The position numbers were made by a program, and so were the translations under genes. From contig NZ_VKOG01000001.1 in NCBI RefSeq assembly GCF_007474545.1, forward strand, positions 682,001 to 746,000: a stretch of DNA of 64,000 nucleotides. Direction: 5' to 3'. The number at the start of each line of letters is the position of its first letter. Position 1 is the first letter of the stretch. This document shows positions 4,124 to 60,689 of this stretch, in pieces. The notes beneath the pieces are model-generated. The model was given only the letters and a program-made list of their open reading frames with translations. It was not told where the DNA came from and did not search any database. Origin of the DNA: Chryseobacterium binzhouense (GTDB lineage Bacteria > Bacteroidota > Bacteroidia > Flavobacteriales > Weeksellaceae).

Positions 4124-5344
4124 TTATAAATTTTTAGGCTTAATCATCCATGGGATAAGAAAATAGAATGCTGTGGCGGTTGCTGTAAGCAGAATACCGG
4201 TTCCGATCCATAAAATTGTAAAACCAAATTTTTCAGCGATTAAAGTTCCCAGATAGGGTGTGATAATGAAGGCGATAGAAAAAGCAATTCCATTCAGTCC
4301 CATATAAGCTCCCTTATTGTTTTGTCCGGATCTCAAGGCTGTAATTGTTGACATGAACGGCAATGCCCAGATTTCTCCAACCGAGAGCAAAGTCATCGAA
4401 ATAATCAGCGTTATTATGCTGTAGTCAAAACCAAGCATGGCGTAAGAAAGTCCGCAAATAAAAGTTCCGAGAAACATCGTTCTTGCTAAGTTGAGGTATT
4501 TTTCTGCAGCCTGTACCAATCCCATTTCAAGCAAAACTACAATAAAACCACTGTAACCCAAAAGATAACCAATGTTCTGCTGGCTTAGATGCGCTGTTTC
4601 TTTGTAGAAAATCGTTAAAGTACTGAAAAGCTGAAAAAAACATATTGAAAAAAGCATACACAGAAAGCAGTAAATCAAAAATTTACCGTCTTTATAAGGC
4701 GAGTTCTCTTTTTTTATCTCAATAGCTTCTTTTACTTTTCTAGCTTTCAGTTTTGCTAATTTATTGCGTTTATTGAAAAAGATAATGTATAAAATACCTG
4801 CCGAGAGAGCAGCAAAAGCATTAGAGTAAAATAAAAACTCGTAAGATATTGCCGACAAAATTCCACCTAAAGCCGGACCGATTGAAAACCCCAGATTAAT
4901 TGCCATCCGGTTCAGGGAAAAAGCCCGTGTTATATTTTCGGGTTTTGCATATTTGGTAATGGCAACTGAGTTGGCAGGACGAAAAGAATCGCTTACAATA
5001 CTCTGCAGCAAAATAATTGCTGCCACTCCGATTTCTGTTTTGAATAATGGAATTAAACAAAATAACGGAACACTCAACAATAAGCTAAGATATTGAACTC
5101 TGTATTCCCCAAATTTGTCGGTAATAAAACCTCCAAACCACGAACCGATTACCGAACCGATTCCGAAAAAGCTAAGTACAATTCCTGTATTTTCGATACT
5201 GAATTTTAAATGAGCAGTCATGTACACACCCAAAAAGGGAAGTACCATGGAGCCGGAACGGTTGATAAGCATAACCAGTGCCAACATCCAGCTTTCTTTA
5301 GACAGTCCTTTGAAGGAGTTGGTATATAAATGTATAATTTTCAC
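4124..5344 (-). CDS. Major facilitator superfamily transporter
   Basis: A 406-residue polytopic protein with about 12 hydrophobic helices split by a basic cytoplasmic loop (around residues 195-215, KRNKLAKLKARKVKE), the usual 6+6 MFS layout. The loop between helices 2 and 3 reads GGFITDKFGEYRVQ, close to the family A motif (GxxxDRxGRR). It resembles the MdtH/DHA1-type drug exporters, but no substrate can be assigned. It lies downstream of glnS on the same strand but is separated by a terminator, so it is likely transcribed alone. Confidence 0.85.
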   Translation of the reverse strand: MKIIHLYTNSFKGLSKESWMLALVMLINRSGSMVLPFLGVYMTAHLKFSIENTGIVLSFFGIGSVIGSWFGGFITDKFGEYRVQYLSLLLSVPLFCLIPLFKTEIGVAAIILLQSIVSDSFRPANSVAITKYAKPENITRAFSLNRMAINLGFSIGPALGGILSAISYEFLFYSNAFAALSAGILYIIFFNKRNKLAKLKARKVKEAIEIKKENSPYKDGKFLIYCFLCMLFSICFFQLFSTLTIFYKETAHLSQQNIGYLLGYSGFIVVLLEMGLVQAAEKYLNLARTMFLGTFICGLSYAMLGFDYSIITLIISMTLLSVGEIWALPFMSTITALRSGQNNKGAYMGLNGIAFSIAFIITPYLGTLIAEKFGFTILWIGTGILLTATATAFYFLIPWMIKPKNL

Positions 5345-51645: not shown

Positions 51646-52047
51646 ATGAAAAATTTCTTATTGAGCTTAATTGCTATTTTTATTTTGTCAGTCTCTGTCT
51701 CTGCAAGACTAAATAATGATGATAATAGATATATCAATGAAAAATTAGCTGCGAATGTTAAAAATAAAGTAACCAAGGAGCCTATAGTAGATAGTTTTGA
51801 AGTTGTTGAAGATGCAGAGGAGGCAAATGGAAGTAATAATAGTGCAGATGCAATAAAACCTTGTAGAATAACTGTTAACTATTATTATGAGGGGCATTTT
51901 GTTGCACAACAAACATATACTGGTAATACATGTCCATTATATGGACAAACCACCTGTAGAGAATGGAAGGCAGATGTTATGAAAATGATTTGGGGTCACA
52001 TTCGTGAACATGAGACAATGATGCCTACTGGAGGACTTACATGTTAA
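51646..52047 (+). CDS. Small secreted cysteine-containing protein, unrecognised
   Basis: 133 residues. A clear signal peptide (MKNFLLSLIAIFILSVSVSA) leads to an acidic linker (DSFEVVEDAEEANGSNNSAD) and a C-terminal region with four Cys (KPCRITVNYYYEGHFVAQQTY, NTCPLYGQTTCREW, TGGLTC) that could form two disulfides. I do not recognise a family. It has its own promoter and terminator. Confidence 0.65.
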   Translation: MKNFLLSLIAIFILSVSVSARLNNDDNRYINEKLAANVKNKVTKEPIVDSFEVVEDAEEANGSNNSADAIKPCRITVNYYYEGHFVAQQTYTGNTCPLYGQTTCREWKADVMKMIWGHIREHETMMPTGGLTC

Positions 52048-54364: not shown

Positions 54365-55159
54365 ATGGAAATTTTACATTCAAAAATATTTGGCGAAAAT
54401 TTATCGTCAACACCGCTCTTAGTGTTTCACGGATTATTCGGAATGCTCGATAACTGGGGAAGTTTTGGGAAAGAAATAGGCGAAATTATGCCTATTCACT
54501 TAATAGATCTGAGAAATCATGGCAGAAGTTTTCATTCCGAAAATATGTCACATGATGATCTTGCAGACGATATCGCTAATTACATGAGCCATTACGGCAT
54601 ACAAAAAGCGCACGTTTTAGGACACTCATTAGGCGGAAAGGCGGTCATGCAGTTTGCTGTCAATTATCCCGAAAAGGTTGAAAAACTTATTGTTGTAGAT
54701 ATTTCTCCAAAATCCTATCCGCCACACCATCAGGGAATTATAAAGGCTCTGGAAACGGTAAATTTTGATGAGATGAAATCTAGAAGTGAAGTAGAAGAAG
54801 TTTTGAGTCAGTATATTCCTGAAAAATCTACTATTCAGTTTTTGGCTAAAAATCTATATTGGGAAGAAAACGGCGATTCTAAAAGGCTGAACTGGAGATT
54901 TAATCTTAAAACTTTAGCAGAAAAATACAGTCAGTTTGTATCTAATGCCATTAAATTTGGTGTTTTTCAAGGTGAAACTTTATTTATTGCCGGGGAAAAA
55001 TCAAACTATATTTTACCGCAGGATGAATTTTCCATCAAACAGCAGTTTCCTAAGGCGCAGTTTGTGAAAATTAAAAATGCGGCGCATTGGGTTCAGGCAG
55101 ATAATCCTGTTGATTTTGCGGTTATAGTAAAAGATTTTTTAGATTTAGCAAAAGTTTAA
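54365..55159 (+). CDS. Alpha/beta hydrolase (YbfF-like esterase)
   Basis: 264 residues with the order typical of YbfF-type esterases: LVFHGLFGMLDNWGSFGKEI, HLIDLRNHGRSFHSENMSHDDLADDIANYM, nucleophile GHSLGGKAVM, DISPKSYPPHHQG, a cap, FIAGEKSNYI (acid) and NAAHWVQADNP (catalytic His). Cytoplasmic; short-chain ester or thioester hydrolase. It precedes the graspetide cluster by 108 bases but has no clear link to it. Confidence 0.85.
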   Translation: MEILHSKIFGENLSSTPLLVFHGLFGMLDNWGSFGKEIGEIMPIHLIDLRNHGRSFHSENMSHDDLADDIANYMSHYGIQKAHVLGHSLGGKAVMQFAVNYPEKVEKLIVVDISPKSYPPHHQGIIKALETVNFDEMKSRSEVEEVLSQYIPEKSTIQFLAKNLYWEENGDSKRLNWRFNLKTLAEKYSQFVSNAIKFGVFQGETLFIAGEKSNYILPQDEFSIKQQFPKAQFVKIKNAAHWVQADNPVDFAVIVKDFLDLAKV

Positions 55160-55267: not shown

Positions 55268-55465
55268 ATGGAAAAGAAAAAATTAAAAAAACCGTTTTTT
55301 GCTTCGTTTTTAGAAAATCAAATAAAAGATACTAAAGCGGTAAAAGGAGGTGCATCGGGAACAGGACTTACAACTCCTTTGAAAGATACGGTTACGAAGC
55401 CTGTTTATGATACCCATCAAACAATGAAGTATCCGTCAGACGGAGATGAAGGAAGTGATATTTAA
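55268..55465 (+). CDS. Microviridin-like graspetide precursor peptide
   Basis: 65 residues. The leader carries PFFASFLE (residues 9-16), matching the helix motif PFFARFLE by which microviridin ligases recognise their precursors. A GG pair (27-28, AVKGG-ASG) fits the cleavage site of C39-peptidase exporters. The C-terminus HQTMKYPSDGDEGSDI (50-65) reproduces the microviridin core T-x-K-Y-P-S-D-x-(D/E)-E, with Gly59 where the aromatic Trp usually is. Thr52 and Ser57 could give omega-esters with Asp58/60 or Glu61, and Lys54 an omega-amide. Between the GG and the core, TTPLKDTVTKPVYDT adds further Thr/Asp that may be a second modifiable part. A terminator-like hairpin lies between this gene and the ligases. 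Confidence 0.88.
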   Translation: MEKKKLKKPFFASFLENQIKDTKAVKGGASGTGLTTPLKDTVTKPVYDTHQTMKYPSDGDEGSDI

Positions 55466-55503
55466 ATTTTCTCTTAGAAAAGCATATTAACAACTTTATA
55501 TTG

Positions 55504-55536
55504 AAAGGAAACTTAGACGTCAAGTTTCCTTTTTTA
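55504..55536 (+). terminator. Terminator or attenuator between precursor and ligase genes
   Basis: 11-bp stem AAAGGAAACTT / AAGTTTCCTTT with a 7-base loop and seven T. It sits 38 bases after the precursor and 13 before the first ligase, so it could give a high precursor-to-enzyme ratio by partial termination. Confidence 0.8.
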
Positions 55537-55548
55537 TTATGATTAAAG

Positions 55549-56508
55549 ATGATTCTCTGTATCACTCATTCTCAGGACTTTTACAATATTGATCTTTTTT
55601 TTGAATATCTTGCATCGAAAAATATTCCTTTTTTTCGGTTAAATTCTGATTGTTTCAACCATCAGATGAAGTTAAGTCTTAATACTAGTTCGTTTACAAT
55701 AACGGATGAATCGGGAAATCAAATCAGTTCTGAGGATATAAAAGCGGTCTGGCACCGCAAAACCTGGAGTATTAAATTCCCCGAAGATCTTGATGATCAT
55801 TACCGGTCTATTTTTTTAAATGAATATCAAAGCTTAAGATTAAATGTTTTCACGACACTCGAACATCTTCCATGGATCAATCCTTTGCAGTCTGAAAGAA
55901 ACATTGAGTCCAACAAGATTTTGCAGCTGAAAATTGCCAAAAAGAATGGCTTAATAATTCCTGAAACACTTTTTTCAAACAATGAAGATGGGGTAAAAGA
56001 TTTTTTCCGTAATTTCTGTAATGGTAAAGCAATTGCAAAACTTCACGGAACGATTTCTGCGTCTATGAATGGTCAGGAAATGATTTCGACTATAGTTTTT
56101 GATGAAAATAGTCTTGAGCATCTGTCTGATATTACTTCTTGCCCAATGATTTTTCAGCCCTATATTCACAAGCAGTATGAGCTGAGAATTGTGTATGTAA
56201 ATGGTGAATTTTTTACCGGAAAGATCAATAACAGCATTCATGCTGACTGGCGGGTTTCCCGGTCAGACTTTTTCTGGGAAAAATATGATTTGCCGGAAGC
56301 TGTAGAAAACAGTTTAAACTTAATGATGAAAGAAATGGGATTGATTTTTGGAGCTATTGATATGATTAAAAGTACTGATGGAAATTACTATTTTCTGGAA
56401 GTAAATCCGCAGGGAGAATGGGGAATGCTTCAGAAAGAATTAAATTTTCCTATTGCAGAGAGAATCGCAGATTATCTTATAAACAGAATATACACCAATG
56501 AACAATAA
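55549..56508 (+). CDS. MvdC/MvdD-family ATP-grasp ligase, first
   Basis: 319 residues. The opening MILCITHSQDFYNID and VWHRKTW are as in MvdC/MvdD peptide ligases. ATP-grasp residues include QPYIHKQYELRI, KINNSIHADWRVSR, GAIDMIKSTDGNYYFLEVNPQGEWGM. It uses ATP to activate precursor Asp/Glu side chains and close omega-ester or omega-amide rings. The NPQGEW ending resembles ester-forming MvdD more than MvdC, but I cannot prove which bond it makes. It overlaps the next ligase by 11 bases. Confidence 0.85.
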   Translation: MILCITHSQDFYNIDLFFEYLASKNIPFFRLNSDCFNHQMKLSLNTSSFTITDESGNQISSEDIKAVWHRKTWSIKFPEDLDDHYRSIFLNEYQSLRLNVFTTLEHLPWINPLQSERNIESNKILQLKIAKKNGLIIPETLFSNNEDGVKDFFRNFCNGKAIAKLHGTISASMNGQEMISTIVFDENSLEHLSDITSCPMIFQPYIHKQYELRIVYVNGEFFTGKINNSIHADWRVSRSDFFWEKYDLPEAVENSLNLMMKEMGLIFGAIDMIKSTDGNYYFLEVNPQGEWGMLQKELNFPIAERIADYLINRIYTNEQ

Positions 56509-57505
56509 AATATTAATTATTACACATACACAAGACAGTTTTTCCTTAGAAAAAGTTACAGAATTTATCGCTCAGAATAACTTCGAGGTTATCCGTTTCG
56601 ATGTAGATCTATATCCTTTAAAAAATCAACTTTCTACTGTTTTTGAGAATGGAAAATGGATTTCATATTTAAAAACACAAGACACCAAAATTAAATTAGA
56701 TGATCTTTCTGCAGTTTGGTACAGAAGAGCTTACAATATAGGGACTGGCTTAAAAGAAGAGCTGGAAGCTAAATTTTTTGGTCCTGCTATGGGCGAAATC
56801 AGACATACACTTTTTGGTTTTATAGAATCTCTGGATTGCTATTCATTAGGAAAGCCAAGTGTGTACCGCAGAATCGACAGCAAAGAAGAACAGCTTAAAA
56901 TAGCACATAAATTAGAATTTAAAATTCCTGAAACCTGCATTACAAATGATCCGGAAGAAGCTAAAAGATTCATTATGCAGCATCAGAATGTTGTTGGGAA
57001 AATGCAAACAGGTTTTGCAATCTACGAAGATGGCGTTGAAAATGTAGTTTTCACCAATGTTATTGATGAAGAAAGCCAGGAAAGATTAGATTCACTGGTG
57101 TATTGTCCGATGCAGTTTCAGAAGAAGATTGAAAAGAAAAAAGAGCTGCGGATTACGATAGTCGGGCAGGATGTCTATGCGTTTGAAATTGATTCGCAGC
57201 AATCTGAGGATGCAAAAATAGACTGGAGAAAAGATGGCATCAATTTAATTGACAAATGGAAAAAAACGAATATTCCGGCAGATATTGAGCAGAAACTTCT
57301 GAATTTACTTGATGTTTATCATGTAGATTATGGTGCCGTTGATATGATTGTTTCGCCCGAAGATGAATATTATTTTATCGAAATCAACGCCGCAGGAGAA
57401 TTTTTCTGGTTAGATAATCTTTTGGATGATCATGCAATTTCAAAAAGCATTGCCGATGTTCTCTGCGGAAAAGTGCCCAGAAGAAACAATATGGTTTTAA
57501 AATAA
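56498..57505 (+). CDS. MvdC/MvdD-family ATP-grasp ligase, second
   Basis: 335 residues of the same family: KILIITHTQDSF, VWYRRAYNIG, CPMQFQKKIEKKKELRITIVG, DWRKDGINLID and the metal/ATP site GAVDMIVSPEDEYYFIEINAAGEFFWLD. The different end (NAAGEFFW rather than NPQGEW) suggests a distinct ring chemistry, perhaps the lactam step, but that is inference. It starts within the last codons of the first ligase, so both are made together. Confidence 0.85.
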   Translation: MNNKILIITHTQDSFSLEKVTEFIAQNNFEVIRFDVDLYPLKNQLSTVFENGKWISYLKTQDTKIKLDDLSAVWYRRAYNIGTGLKEELEAKFFGPAMGEIRHTLFGFIESLDCYSLGKPSVYRRIDSKEEQLKIAHKLEFKIPETCITNDPEEAKRFIMQHQNVVGKMQTGFAIYEDGVENVVFTNVIDEESQERLDSLVYCPMQFQKKIEKKKELRITIVGQDVYAFEIDSQQSEDAKIDWRKDGINLIDKWKKTNIPADIEQKLLNLLDVYHVDYGAVDMIVSPEDEYYFIEINAAGEFFWLDNLLDDHAISKSIADVLCGKVPRRNNMVLK

Positions 57506-57512
57506 ATTTTTC

Positions 57513-59669
57513 GTGGCAAAAATTACCTTTTACAGGCAGCTCGATTCGATGGATTGCGGACCGACATGTCTTAGGATAATTACAAAATATTTTGGAAAGA
57601 ATTTTTCAGCGGAATATCTTCGCCTGATTACGCTTCAGTCCAGAACAGGGGTGAGCTTTCATGATCTCATTTCCGCTTCTCATGAACTGGGTTTTGAAAC
57701 TCTTGCGGTTGAAACTGATTTTGAAAAGCTGATGTCTAAAGCTCCTAAACCCTGCATTTTACACTGGAAGAATGAGCATTTTGTGGTTTTGCCTCCACAG
57801 GAAAAAACGGATAAAATTCTGATTGCTGATCCTGAATATGGAAAAATATTGCTCTCTGAAGATGAGTTTAAAAGCAGTTGGCTTCAGAACACTGAAACAG
57901 GGAAAGCTCTTTTGCTGCAGCCTGCTCAGAAATTTTATGATAAAAAAGAAGAGAAAATTCAGGAAGGCTTTGGTTTTCTCATCTCATACCTCAAGCCTCA
58001 CAGACAATCTTTGGCTGTGTTGGTTTTTACTTTGCTTTTGACCAGCATAATCACGCTTGCTTTTCCTTTTCTTACACAGAATCTCGTAGATAAAGGAATC
58101 AATTCTAAGGATAAAAATCTGGTTCTGATGATCATTGCTGCGCAGATTTTTCTTTTTTCCGGAAACAGTTTTATGGAATTGATAAGGAGCTGGATTATGC
58201 TGAAAGTCAATACCCGGGTAAATATCAAACTGATCAGCGATTTTATAGAGAAACTCATAAAGCTTCCCGTTTCTTATTTTGAATCTAAAAAGCTGGGTGA
58301 TATTCAGCAGAGGATTTTAGATCATCAGAGAATCAATTCTTTTCTTTCAACCAATACGCTTTCAATTCTTTTTTCATTTTTAAACCTTATTGTATTTTCA
58401 GTGGTTTTGGGAGTTTATAATCTCGTCATTTTACTGATATTCTTTGTCTTGAGTGCACTTTCGGTCATCTGGATTTCTGTTTTTTTAAACCGGAGAAAAA
58501 TTTTAGATCAGAAAGAATTTGTTCTTAACAGTAAAAATCAGAATATTCTGAACGAAATGGTTTTGGGAATGTCTGAAATCAAAATCAATCAATCAGAAAA
58601 TTTCCAGAGAACTAAATGGGAAAATCTGCAGCATGATGTATTTGAAAGAAATAAAAAAGCGCTGAAGCTTTCGCAATATCAGATGATTGGGGCGGGTTTC
58701 ATCTCTCAGCTTAAAAATATTCTTATTACAGGATTTGCAGCCTTTTCGGTTATTGATGGTGATCTTACTTTGGGGATGATGCTTGCCATCAGTTTTATTG
58801 TCGGTCAGATGAATTCGCCTTTCGATCAGCTTCTGTATTTTATAGAGATTTCTCAGGATGCAAAATTAAGCCTGGAAAGAATTGCTGAGGTTCATACCAA
58901 ACCGATAGAAAATACAGCCCAGCATTTTAAAGAAATAAAGAACAATAATGATATTGTACTCAATAATGTAAGCTTTGGTTTTGGAGATTTTGATATTCTG
59001 AAAAACTTGAATGCCGTCATTCCGCATGGTAAAGTAACGGCAATTGTAGGAGAAAGCGGAAGCGGGAAAACTACACTTTTCAAGCTTCTTCTTCGTTTTT
59101 ACGAGCCAGATTCAGGACAAATTGATTTTGGCGGAACTTCATTATCGGACATTTCACTTAATGAATGGCGTAAGATCACGGGAACTGTTCTGCAAGAAGG
59201 TTTTGTTTTTTCTGAAAGTATTCGGAGAAATATAACTTTGAAGCAGGATAATATTGATGAAAATCTGCTGGATTATGCTGTAAAAGTTGCAAATTTGCAA
59301 AAACTGATTCAGCAGCTTCCGCAAGGTATGGATACCATTGTCGGAAACGACGGAATAGGTCTGAGTACAGGGCAAAAACAGCGTATTTTGATTGCAAGAG
59401 CCATCTACAAAAATCCGTCTGTTTTTCTTTTGGATGAAGCAACGAGTGCTTTGGATGCGCAGAATGAAAAGGAAATCATGAGCAATCTTTTTGATTTTTT
59501 TAAAGGAAAAACGGTGATTATCATTGCACATCGCCTTAGTACGGTAAAAAATGCAGACCAGATTCTTGTTCTGAATGACGGAACTTTTATTGAAAAAGGA
59601 ACTCATGCCGAACTGTTGGAAAAGAAAAATTTTTATTTTAATTTAGTAAGTAATCAAGTAGGAATATAA
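57513..59669 (+). CDS. Peptidase-containing ABC exporter (C39 type) of the graspetide cluster
   Basis: 718 residues from a GTG start. The N-terminal C39 peptidase shows DSMDCGPTC (catalytic Cys15), NEHFVVL (His89) and ADPEYG, and should cut the leader after its GG pair. Six membrane segments follow (about 165-460), then the ATPase with Walker A GESGSGKTT (about 513), signature LSTGQKQR (about 615), Walker B VFLLDEATSALD and H-loop IIAHRLSTV. It trims and exports the modified peptide. It lies 7 bases after the second ligase. Confidence 0.93.
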   Translation: MAKITFYRQLDSMDCGPTCLRIITKYFGKNFSAEYLRLITLQSRTGVSFHDLISASHELGFETLAVETDFEKLMSKAPKPCILHWKNEHFVVLPPQEKTDKILIADPEYGKILLSEDEFKSSWLQNTETGKALLLQPAQKFYDKKEEKIQEGFGFLISYLKPHRQSLAVLVFTLLLTSIITLAFPFLTQNLVDKGINSKDKNLVLMIIAAQIFLFSGNSFMELIRSWIMLKVNTRVNIKLISDFIEKLIKLPVSYFESKKLGDIQQRILDHQRINSFLSTNTLSILFSFLNLIVFSVVLGVYNLVILLIFFVLSALSVIWISVFLNRRKILDQKEFVLNSKNQNILNEMVLGMSEIKINQSENFQRTKWENLQHDVFERNKKALKLSQYQMIGAGFISQLKNILITGFAAFSVIDGDLTLGMMLAISFIVGQMNSPFDQLLYFIEISQDAKLSLERIAEVHTKPIENTAQHFKEIKNNNDIVLNNVSFGFGDFDILKNLNAVIPHGKVTAIVGESGSGKTTLFKLLLRFYEPDSGQIDFGGTSLSDISLNEWRKITGTVLQEGFVFSESIRRNITLKQDNIDENLLDYAVKVANLQKLIQQLPQGMDTIVGNDGIGLSTGQKQRILIARAIYKNPSVFLLDEATSALDAQNEKEIMSNLFDFFKGKTVIIIAHRLSTVKNADQILVLNDGTFIEKGTHAELLEKKNFYFNLVSNQVGI

Positions 59670-59672
59670 TTA

Positions 59673-60689
59673 ATGGTTTTCGTAACAGGTGCTACAGGGA
59701 TTTTAGGCAGGGTAATCGTTCTGGAACTTTTGAAAAAAGGGAAAAAGGTACGGGCAGCCAAAAGACCTACCAGTAATTTAATTGAGGTAAAAAATTCTTA
59801 CCGTTATTATACTGAAAATTCTGATGATTTTTTCAGCAAAATTGAATGGGTAGATATTGATTTTGAAGATATTCTTTCTGTTGAAGCTGCATTAAACGAT
59901 GTTACGGAAGTTTATCATTGTGCCGCCAAAGTAGGGTATAACCCAAAAGACAGTAAAGAAATTTATCGTACCAACACAAAAAGCACTGGAAATCTTTTAT
60001 ATGCATGTGAAAATTCCACTGTTAAAAAATTTCTTCATGTAAGTTCTATTGCAGTCTTAGATTTATTCAACGAAAACGGAGAGCTTGACGAGAGCTCAGA
60101 TTTTAATCCTAAAGAAGATCATTCTGCATATGCGATTTCAAAACATATTTCAGAAATGGAAGTCTGGCGCGCTTCTGCGGAAGGATTGAATACGATCATC
60201 ATCAACCCCGGAATGATTATAGGAACCGGAAACTGGGGAAAAAGCAGCGGAGATGTTTTTCCTACTTTTGAAAACAACAGCTTTACATTTTCCGGAGGCA
60301 CAAGCTATGTAGATGTGAGAGATGTTGCAGAAATTGCTGTACACCTTATGGAGAAAGAAAAGTTCGGTGAGCGTTTTGTGATTGTATCAGAGACTAAAAA
60401 ATATGCTGAAATAGGAGAGCAGATAAGAAAAAAATTAGGTCTGAAAGAAGCTAAAATTCTTTCAAAGAATATTCTTCAGATCGGCAGAGTTGCCAATGTA
60501 TTGTTCAGCTGGCTTATTCCTCAGCTGAGAATGGCAACAAAAACTAATATAGAAGCTGTTTCAAACCTGAATTTTATTTCAAATAAAAAAATAAAAGAAA
60601 GACTGGGGTATCAGTTTATTCCTGTTTCAGAAAGCATAGACTTTCATCTTAATAACTATATTAACGACAAAAAGCTGAATAAAAAGTAA
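59673..60689 (+). CDS. NAD-dependent epimerase/dehydratase-family protein
   Basis: 338 residues of the extended SDR family: nucleotide-binding GATGILGRVIV at residue 5, VYHCAAKVGYNPKD, a Ser in HVSSIAVLD and the active YAISKHISE (YxxxK). It lies 3 bases after the exporter stop and overlaps the acyl-CoA ligase by one base. Sugar-nucleotide, steroid-like or lipid-linked substrates are all possible. Whether it belongs to the peptide pathway or to a separate lipid operon is open. Confidence 0.8.
   Translation: MVFVTGATGILGRVIVLELLKKGKKVRAAKRPTSNLIEVKNSYRYYTENSDDFFSKIEWVDIDFEDILSVEAALNDVTEVYHCAAKVGYNPKDSKEIYRTNTKSTGNLLYACENSTVKKFLHVSSIAVLDLFNENGELDESSDFNPKEDHSAYAISKHISEMEVWRASAEGLNTIIINPGMIIGTGNWGKSSGDVFPTFENNSFTFSGGTSYVDVRDVAEIAVHLMEKEKFGERFVIVSETKKYAEIGEQIRKKLGLKEAKILSKNILQIGRVANVLFSWLIPQLRMATKTNIEAVSNLNFISNKKIKERLGYQFIPVSESIDFHLNNYINDKKLNKK

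Follow-up and report, generated by a model that had tools for sequence, protein, structure and literature searches.

The stretch of DNA analyzed here, termed the window, comprises 64,000 nucleotides of Chryseobacterium binzhouense (contig NZ_VKOG01000001.1, positions 682,001 to 746,000) and contains what can be assigned with high confidence to the chryseoviridin-type (cdn) graspetide loci, as an orthologue of the published cdn locus that is ordinary for Chryseobacterium. In the list of open reading frames (ORFs), a precursor gene, two ATP-grasp ligase genes (cdnB and cdnC) and the gene of a C39-peptidase ATP-binding cassette (ABC) exporter are consecutive and share one orientation, all on the + strand, and the reading frames of cdnB and cdnC overlap by 11 bp. 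All four genes have open reading frames; the locus is real and intact and, judging from its sequence, probably working. It is known here from the gene sequence, and family assignments were made by profile searches with Pfam and NCBIfam models. An earlier note on this DNA had proposed both the grouping of the four genes and their microviridin/graspetide class, and both proposals are confirmed, the former by the ORFs and family matches and the latter by the precursor (NF033738, E 3.8e-19) and the MvdC/MvdD-type ligases. The genes of the cluster are as follows:

55268..55465, + strand: graspetide precursor, 65 amino acids (NF033738, Inhibitor_I10)
55549..56508, + strand: cdnB, MvdC/MdnB-type ATP-grasp ligase (TIGR04185, 402 bits)
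56498..57505, + strand: cdnC, MvdD/MdnC-type ATP-grasp ligase (TIGR04184, 450 bits)
57513..59669, + strand: C39-peptidase ABC exporter, 718 amino acids, GTG start as listed (Peptidase_C39 3.2e-30, ABC_membrane, ABC_tran)

The precursor reaches 69 bits with the NCBIfam model NF033738 (microviridin/marinostatin), for which the cut-off is 26, and is also matched by Pfam Inhibitor_I10 (E 3.1e-7). It is composed of a leader with the motif PFFASFL, a double glycine (GG) at residues 27-28 and a core spanning residues 29-65, and its C-terminus reads TMKYPSDGDEGSDI, with Gly at residue 59. Residues 43-61 match exactly the core motif TxxxxDxxxTxKxPSDxD[DE] given for chryseoviridins, in which the residue after PSD is left free (x) (PMC8939145, section 8). 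The following elements can be placed on the precursor gene:

55346..55351, + strand: codons of Gly27-Gly28, predicted C39 cleavage site (GG in 193/193 precursors)
55370..55387, + strand: ring unit 1, T35-T-P-L-K-D40, predicted Thr-Asp ester
55394..55411, + strand: ring unit 2, T43-K-P-V-Y-D48, predicted Thr-Asp ester
55421..55450, + strand: terminal microviridin-like core, T52-M-K-Y-P-S-D-G-D-E61, putative bonds by analogy

This arrangement predicts multiple Thr-Asp macrocycles with a microviridin-like bicycle at the end, the latter formed by analogy through the predicted esters T52-D58 and S57-D60 and a predicted amide K54-E61. The underlying ring chemistry is reportedly that of the 2021 chryseoviridin paper in the Journal of the American Chemical Society, as relayed in part by PMC8939145, which cites it. 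A genome search found this one graspetide precursor in C. binzhouense and no second graspetide locus; two ligase matches were obtained, one at the place of cdnC, and the other, whose row is not listed, is taken to be cdnB.

For comparison, one genome per species was scanned for related loci, which yielded 80 loci (L032-L111) in Chryseobacterium genomes and a small number of metagenome bins; with the window they form a set of 81 loci, or 82 when L124 is added. From 199 candidate ORFs, five chance matches (a single ORF in each of L049, L050 and L053, plus minus-strand ORFs in L099 and L100) and one L037 precursor with an out-of-frame leader start were removed, leaving 193 precursors in 80 of the 81 loci, window included, while L095, cut at a contig end, yielded no precursor. 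The L037 sequence removed is the second precursor of that locus, at about positions 4455-5000; it has no intact PFFA leader, the leader start lying in another frame, which points to a frameshift or an assembly error.

Gly59 and the four residues beyond the glutamate had been presented in the earlier note as an altered core, and a second Thr/Asp-rich segment as a further mark of a candidate new member. PSD is followed by Trp in cyanobacterial microviridin cores, and relative to these the core of the window precursor would indeed be altered, with Gly replacing an aromatic residue and a tail added, and the locus would be a candidate for a new graspetide variant; in addition, the exact tail GSDI is present in just two of the 193 precursors, those of the window and of C. 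echinoideorum (L032). Within the genus, however, Gly is the commonest residue after PSD (128 precursors, followed by Ser in 56, Asn in eight and His in one), Trp, Phe and Tyr are absent from this position, and every precursor extends 3-18 residues past the acidic pair, so that the altered core is rejected as a mark of novelty, and a variant reading, against which the free position in the published motif (PMC8939145) also speaks, is highly improbable. The second Thr/Asp-rich segment corresponds to two TxxxxD units, which are the variable part of chryseoviridin cores (PMC8939145, section 8): between GG and the terminal core, two units are present in the window, like in 22 of the 193 precursors, one unit in a single precursor, three in 91 and four in 79. 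The second residue after PSD is Asp in all 193 precursors, the position after it is occupied by Glu in 100, Asp in 88, Ala in four and Ser in one, and GG is found near the leader end throughout. The published motif is matched exactly by 131/193 precursors and the shorter form [TS]xKxPSDxD[DE] by 188/193, and TMKYPSDGDE itself is present in 43/193.

The two ligases are distinguished by their profile scores, as the first obtains 402 bits with TIGR04185 (MvdC) versus 200 with TIGR04184 (MvdD), and the second 450 bits with TIGR04184 versus 261 with TIGR04185. Among solved structures, 5ig8 and AMdnB 7m4s (about 211 bits) are nearest to the first ligase, with CdnC 7mgv at 115 bits, and CdnC 7mgv (580 bits) is nearest to the second, followed by 5ig9 (218 bits). 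The proposed grouping of the ligases with MvdC and MvdD is thereby borne out at the level of profile and pairwise scores. Based on these similarities, cdnB is predicted to encode the Lys-Glu lactam former and cdnC the ester former.

Orthology to the published locus extends to the flanking genes:

54365..55159, + strand: alpha/beta hydrolase, conserved flank of cdn loci (Pfam Abhydrolase_1, 2e-25)
59673..60689, + strand: NAD-dependent epimerase/dehydratase, conserved flank of cdn loci (Pfam Epimerase, 5.4e-28)

An alpha/beta hydrolase and an epimerase also flank the published cdn locus (PMC8939145, section 8), and the order hydrolase, precursor(s), cdnB, cdnC, epimerase recurs among the loci. 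The hydrolase orthologue lies upstream in 81/82 loci, L095 being the exception, and the epimerase orthologue downstream in 76/82, the remaining six having no match in the examined stretch. The hydrolase is graded here as a conserved flank only. Matches to cdnC at E 1e-147 or better were counted by hand in 143 of 174 genomes of the genus, and 247 drawn genomes of the family gave 85 matches at E 1e-60, all within Chryseobacterium, one of 33 genera. According to Pfam, the genes on one side of the cluster encode a mechanosensitive channel, PdxJ and the hydrolase; on the other side, the epimerase is followed by an AMP-binding enzyme and a protein resembling diphosphomevalonate decarboxylase. A 133-residue protein with a signal-like start and no Pfam match is encoded at positions 51646-52047 of the window. 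Some of the relatives have additional genes: in L034, L035, L040 and L095, an ORF of 308-314 amino acids with a signal-like start lies between cdnC and the epimerase gene (Pfam gave no match for that of L034), and in L079, L082, L085 and L109 a set of genes is inserted downstream of cdnC, which encodes an HTH_18 regulator with TPR, a TPR protein and, with a Por secretion tail, a secreted Ig/fn3 protein.

Compared with chryseoviridin in C. gregarium DSM 19109 (L101, the experimental host) and its relatives, the window shares the flanks, the ligase pair and its order, the leader motif, the GG site and the TxxxxDxxxTxKxPSDxD[DE] core, with 76% identity to L101 in cdnC and 65% in cdnB. The two differ in that L101 has four precursors and the window one, that the window has fewer TxxxxD units, and that a C39 exporter lies between cdnC and the epimerase gene in the window and is absent from L101. 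The same five-gene order including the exporter is found in C. echinoideorum (L032; cdnC 96%, exporter 95% identity) and C. formosense (L033; cdnC 94%, exporter 89% identity), whose precursors deviate from that of the window at a small number of core positions and in the tail; the C. formosense locus is named in PMC8939145 (section 8). With the cyanobacterial class I microviridins (MvdC/MvdD), the window shares the PFFA leader motif, the TxKYPSD frame and the paralogous lactone and lactam ligases, but it differs from them in the Gly after PSD, the predicted extra TxxxxD rings, the GG leader with a C39 exporter and the lack of an N-acetyltransferase. In the relevant passages of PMC13039773, class I leaders are described as mostly lacking GG, and no decisive difference was seen between the window and the Bacteroidetes class III microviridins outlined there, with which it shares the long core that is microviridin-like at the C-terminus only, the GG motif and the C39 exporter. 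A passage of PMC7823629, in turn, places the Chryseobacterium precursors in class I.

As had been noted earlier, no N-acetyltransferase gene is adjacent to the cluster, and none of the neighbours identified by Pfam is an acetyltransferase. The suggestion that this constitutes a departure does not hold, since no acetyltransferase was recognised between hydrolase and epimerase across the 80 relatives. This search covered ORFs of at least 90 amino acids outside the known genes, which were present in 21 loci; ten ORFs were scanned with Pfam, and the rest were assessed visually, either from the residues at their start or because they were precursors or antisense ORFs. A passage of PMC7823629 mentions a different study in which about half of the Chryseobacterium clusters had an acetyltransferase, a figure at odds with the present survey. 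Whichever survey holds, the absence is not unusual, and the relevant parts of PMC13039773 and PMC7823629 treat the N-acetyltransferase as optional even in known clusters.

The feature that does set the window locus apart from most relatives is the exporter, whose presence had been noted correctly (Peptidase_C39 3.2e-30 together with ABC_membrane and ABC_tran) and whose distinctiveness had been missed. Exporter orthologues (76-100% identity) are found in 9/174 genomes of the genus, C. binzhouense included, each directly beside cdnC, and the next-best matches in the genus, among those listed by score, are about 48% identical. In terms of loci, the exporter is present in eight of the first set of 81 and additionally in L124. 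In two of these loci, L055 and L096, no epimerase match follows the exporter; a Pfam scan identified a TonB-dependent receptor at this place in L055, and the L096 protein is judged to be the same from its identical start. All nine exporter loci contain a single, short precursor; one precursor is likewise found in 6/73 loci without the exporter, a link that yields no statistics because the nine loci may reflect one event. In the cdnC tree, the nine loci form one side of a branch with a support of 77 in the SH-like approximate likelihood ratio test (SH-aLRT), which is not strong, and in the hydrolase tree, which requires two changes for the nine, eight of them group at 98. A single gain of the exporter in a sub-lineage is the simplest reading, with loss elsewhere as a possible alternative. 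A draw of 395 genomes of the order provided no donor, the nearest exporter relatives outside the genus being 51% and 50% identical. A distant relative of the exporter is encoded in the same genome (L125:8009-10204, minus strand) and adjoins an HlyD-type gene and a 78-residue GG-leader peptide without Pfam match, which indicates that a different peptide is, or can be, its substrate. The surrounding region (L125:6188-13096; C1:392187-399095), in which a VKOR/thioredoxin protein accompanies this second C39-ABC exporter, the HlyD-type gene and the peptide, is probably a separate secreted-peptide system.

The reduced precursor set could also be viewed as the relic of a degenerating cluster, in which one precursor of a larger set is left over and the product is no longer made. 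Such a view would fit the single precursor of the window, as exporter-less relatives mostly have two to five (66/73 loci), and its two TxxxxD units, as 170/193 precursors have three or four. It is nevertheless extremely unlikely, because the four genes are all open and nine species retain identical bond residues: T35, P37, L38, D40, T43-K-P, D48 and Q51-TMKYPSDGDE61 are invariant in 9/9 C39-type precursors, including all predicted bond donors and acceptors. T36 varies among the nine, which makes T35-D40 the likelier first ring. In addition, the window precursor and that of C. echinoideorum, the nearest relative, differ by 17 synonymous and four nonsynonymous codons, the latter (32, 46, 49 and 50) outside the leader motif and the predicted bond residues. 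Judged against this relative, the precursor is under purifying selection.

A further conserved element separates the precursor from the ligase genes:

55504..55532, + strand: terminator-like hairpin followed by a T run, precursor-cdnB intergenic region (minimum free energy -15.4 kcal/mol, z -2.9 for the intergenic region)

A hairpin with a T run is present between the last precursor and cdnB in 79/81 loci, compared to 6/114 after inner precursors and 23/975 in shuffled regions, and after cdnB it occurs in 8/82 loci. Peptide operons commonly have an attenuator between the precursor gene and the enzyme genes. The genome of C. binzhouense contains the stem AAGGAAACTT...AAGTTTCCTT a single time, and across 80 loci its pairs GGAAACTT/AAGTTTCC show no or almost no variation. 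At stem position -3, the outer pair, double changes keep the pairing (A-T in 53, G-C in 25 and G-T in 2 of 80 loci); the hairpin core sequence is missing in L067. As this sequence is conserved beyond pairing, the hairpin might alternatively be an RNA-processing or regulatory element instead of an attenuator. This option appears unlikely, though less so than the alternatives above: the T run that follows gives the hairpin the appearance of an ordinary terminator, Rfam returned three matches, all far below the gathering score, and the conservation of the stem may partly stem from close kinship. Searches for a promoter were negative, with a Bacteroidetes-type motif found in 5/81 upstream regions and inconsistently among close relatives, and a sigma-70 scan performing no better than shuffles (25 found versus a mean of 21.8). 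The text of PMC8939145 contains none of the terms 'terminator', 'attenuat' and 'promoter', and in a literature search combining Chryseobacterium, graspetide and terminator this was the only paper, among the top 20 matches, to join the first two.

Gene content, orthology, the conservation of the bond residues in the nine close relatives and the conserved hairpin are directly established. Building on these, we infer the bonds, closure order, cleavage, export, target and attenuation in the following model, in which bonds, cleavage and target are proposed by homology. The PFFASFL leader of the one ribosomal precursor would recruit both ATP-grasp ligases. CdnC may then form the Thr-Asp esters, giving two single six-residue rings (T35-D40 and T43-D48), and also close the bicyclic end through T52-D58 and S57-D60, while CdnB would make the K54-E61 amide. 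The C39 exporter would cleave after Gly27-Gly28 and release a 37-residue peptide outward, which would most likely act as a serine-protease inhibitor. Its calculated monoisotopic mass is 3924.857 in the unmodified form and 3834.804 with the five water losses that the model predicts, four of them due to CdnC. As in microviridins, the residue following Thr52, here Met53, would determine the inhibitory specificity. The hairpin past the precursor gene probably reduces read-through into the ligase genes and would thereby keep the substrate in excess.

At the level of the genus, it is conceivable, at slightly less than even chances, that a single sub-lineage, which also has only one short precursor, gained its own C39 exporter inside the cdn locus, that the other species probably use an exporter encoded elsewhere, and that a locus-specific hairpin sets the precursor-to-ligase ratio. 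Several points weigh against the cdn model given above. The exporter gene has no HlyD-type membrane-fusion gene as a neighbour, and the locus alone therefore leaves export across both membranes unexplained; the exporter is dispensable for the pathway in general because most relatives are without it. Terminator-like hairpins also follow cdnC (35/82 loci) and the hydrolase gene (21/81); given this frequency, the class of hairpin is not special, only its sequence and position are. Both ligases score slightly below the equivalog cut-offs of 425 (MvdC) and 475 (MvdD), and class, bonds and activity are deduced from sequence.

The narrow spread of the exporter and the conserved hairpin are the less ordinary details of this locus and represent modest additions, not a new kind of system. 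For the family, the survey strikes the 'altered core' from the list of candidates, as Gly after PSD and a tail are normal in the genus. The passages of PMC8939145 on leader removal leave open which enzyme removes graspetide leaders in loci without a peptidase, and the Chryseobacterium loci, some of which have a dedicated C39 exporter and others none, offer a simple natural comparison for this step.

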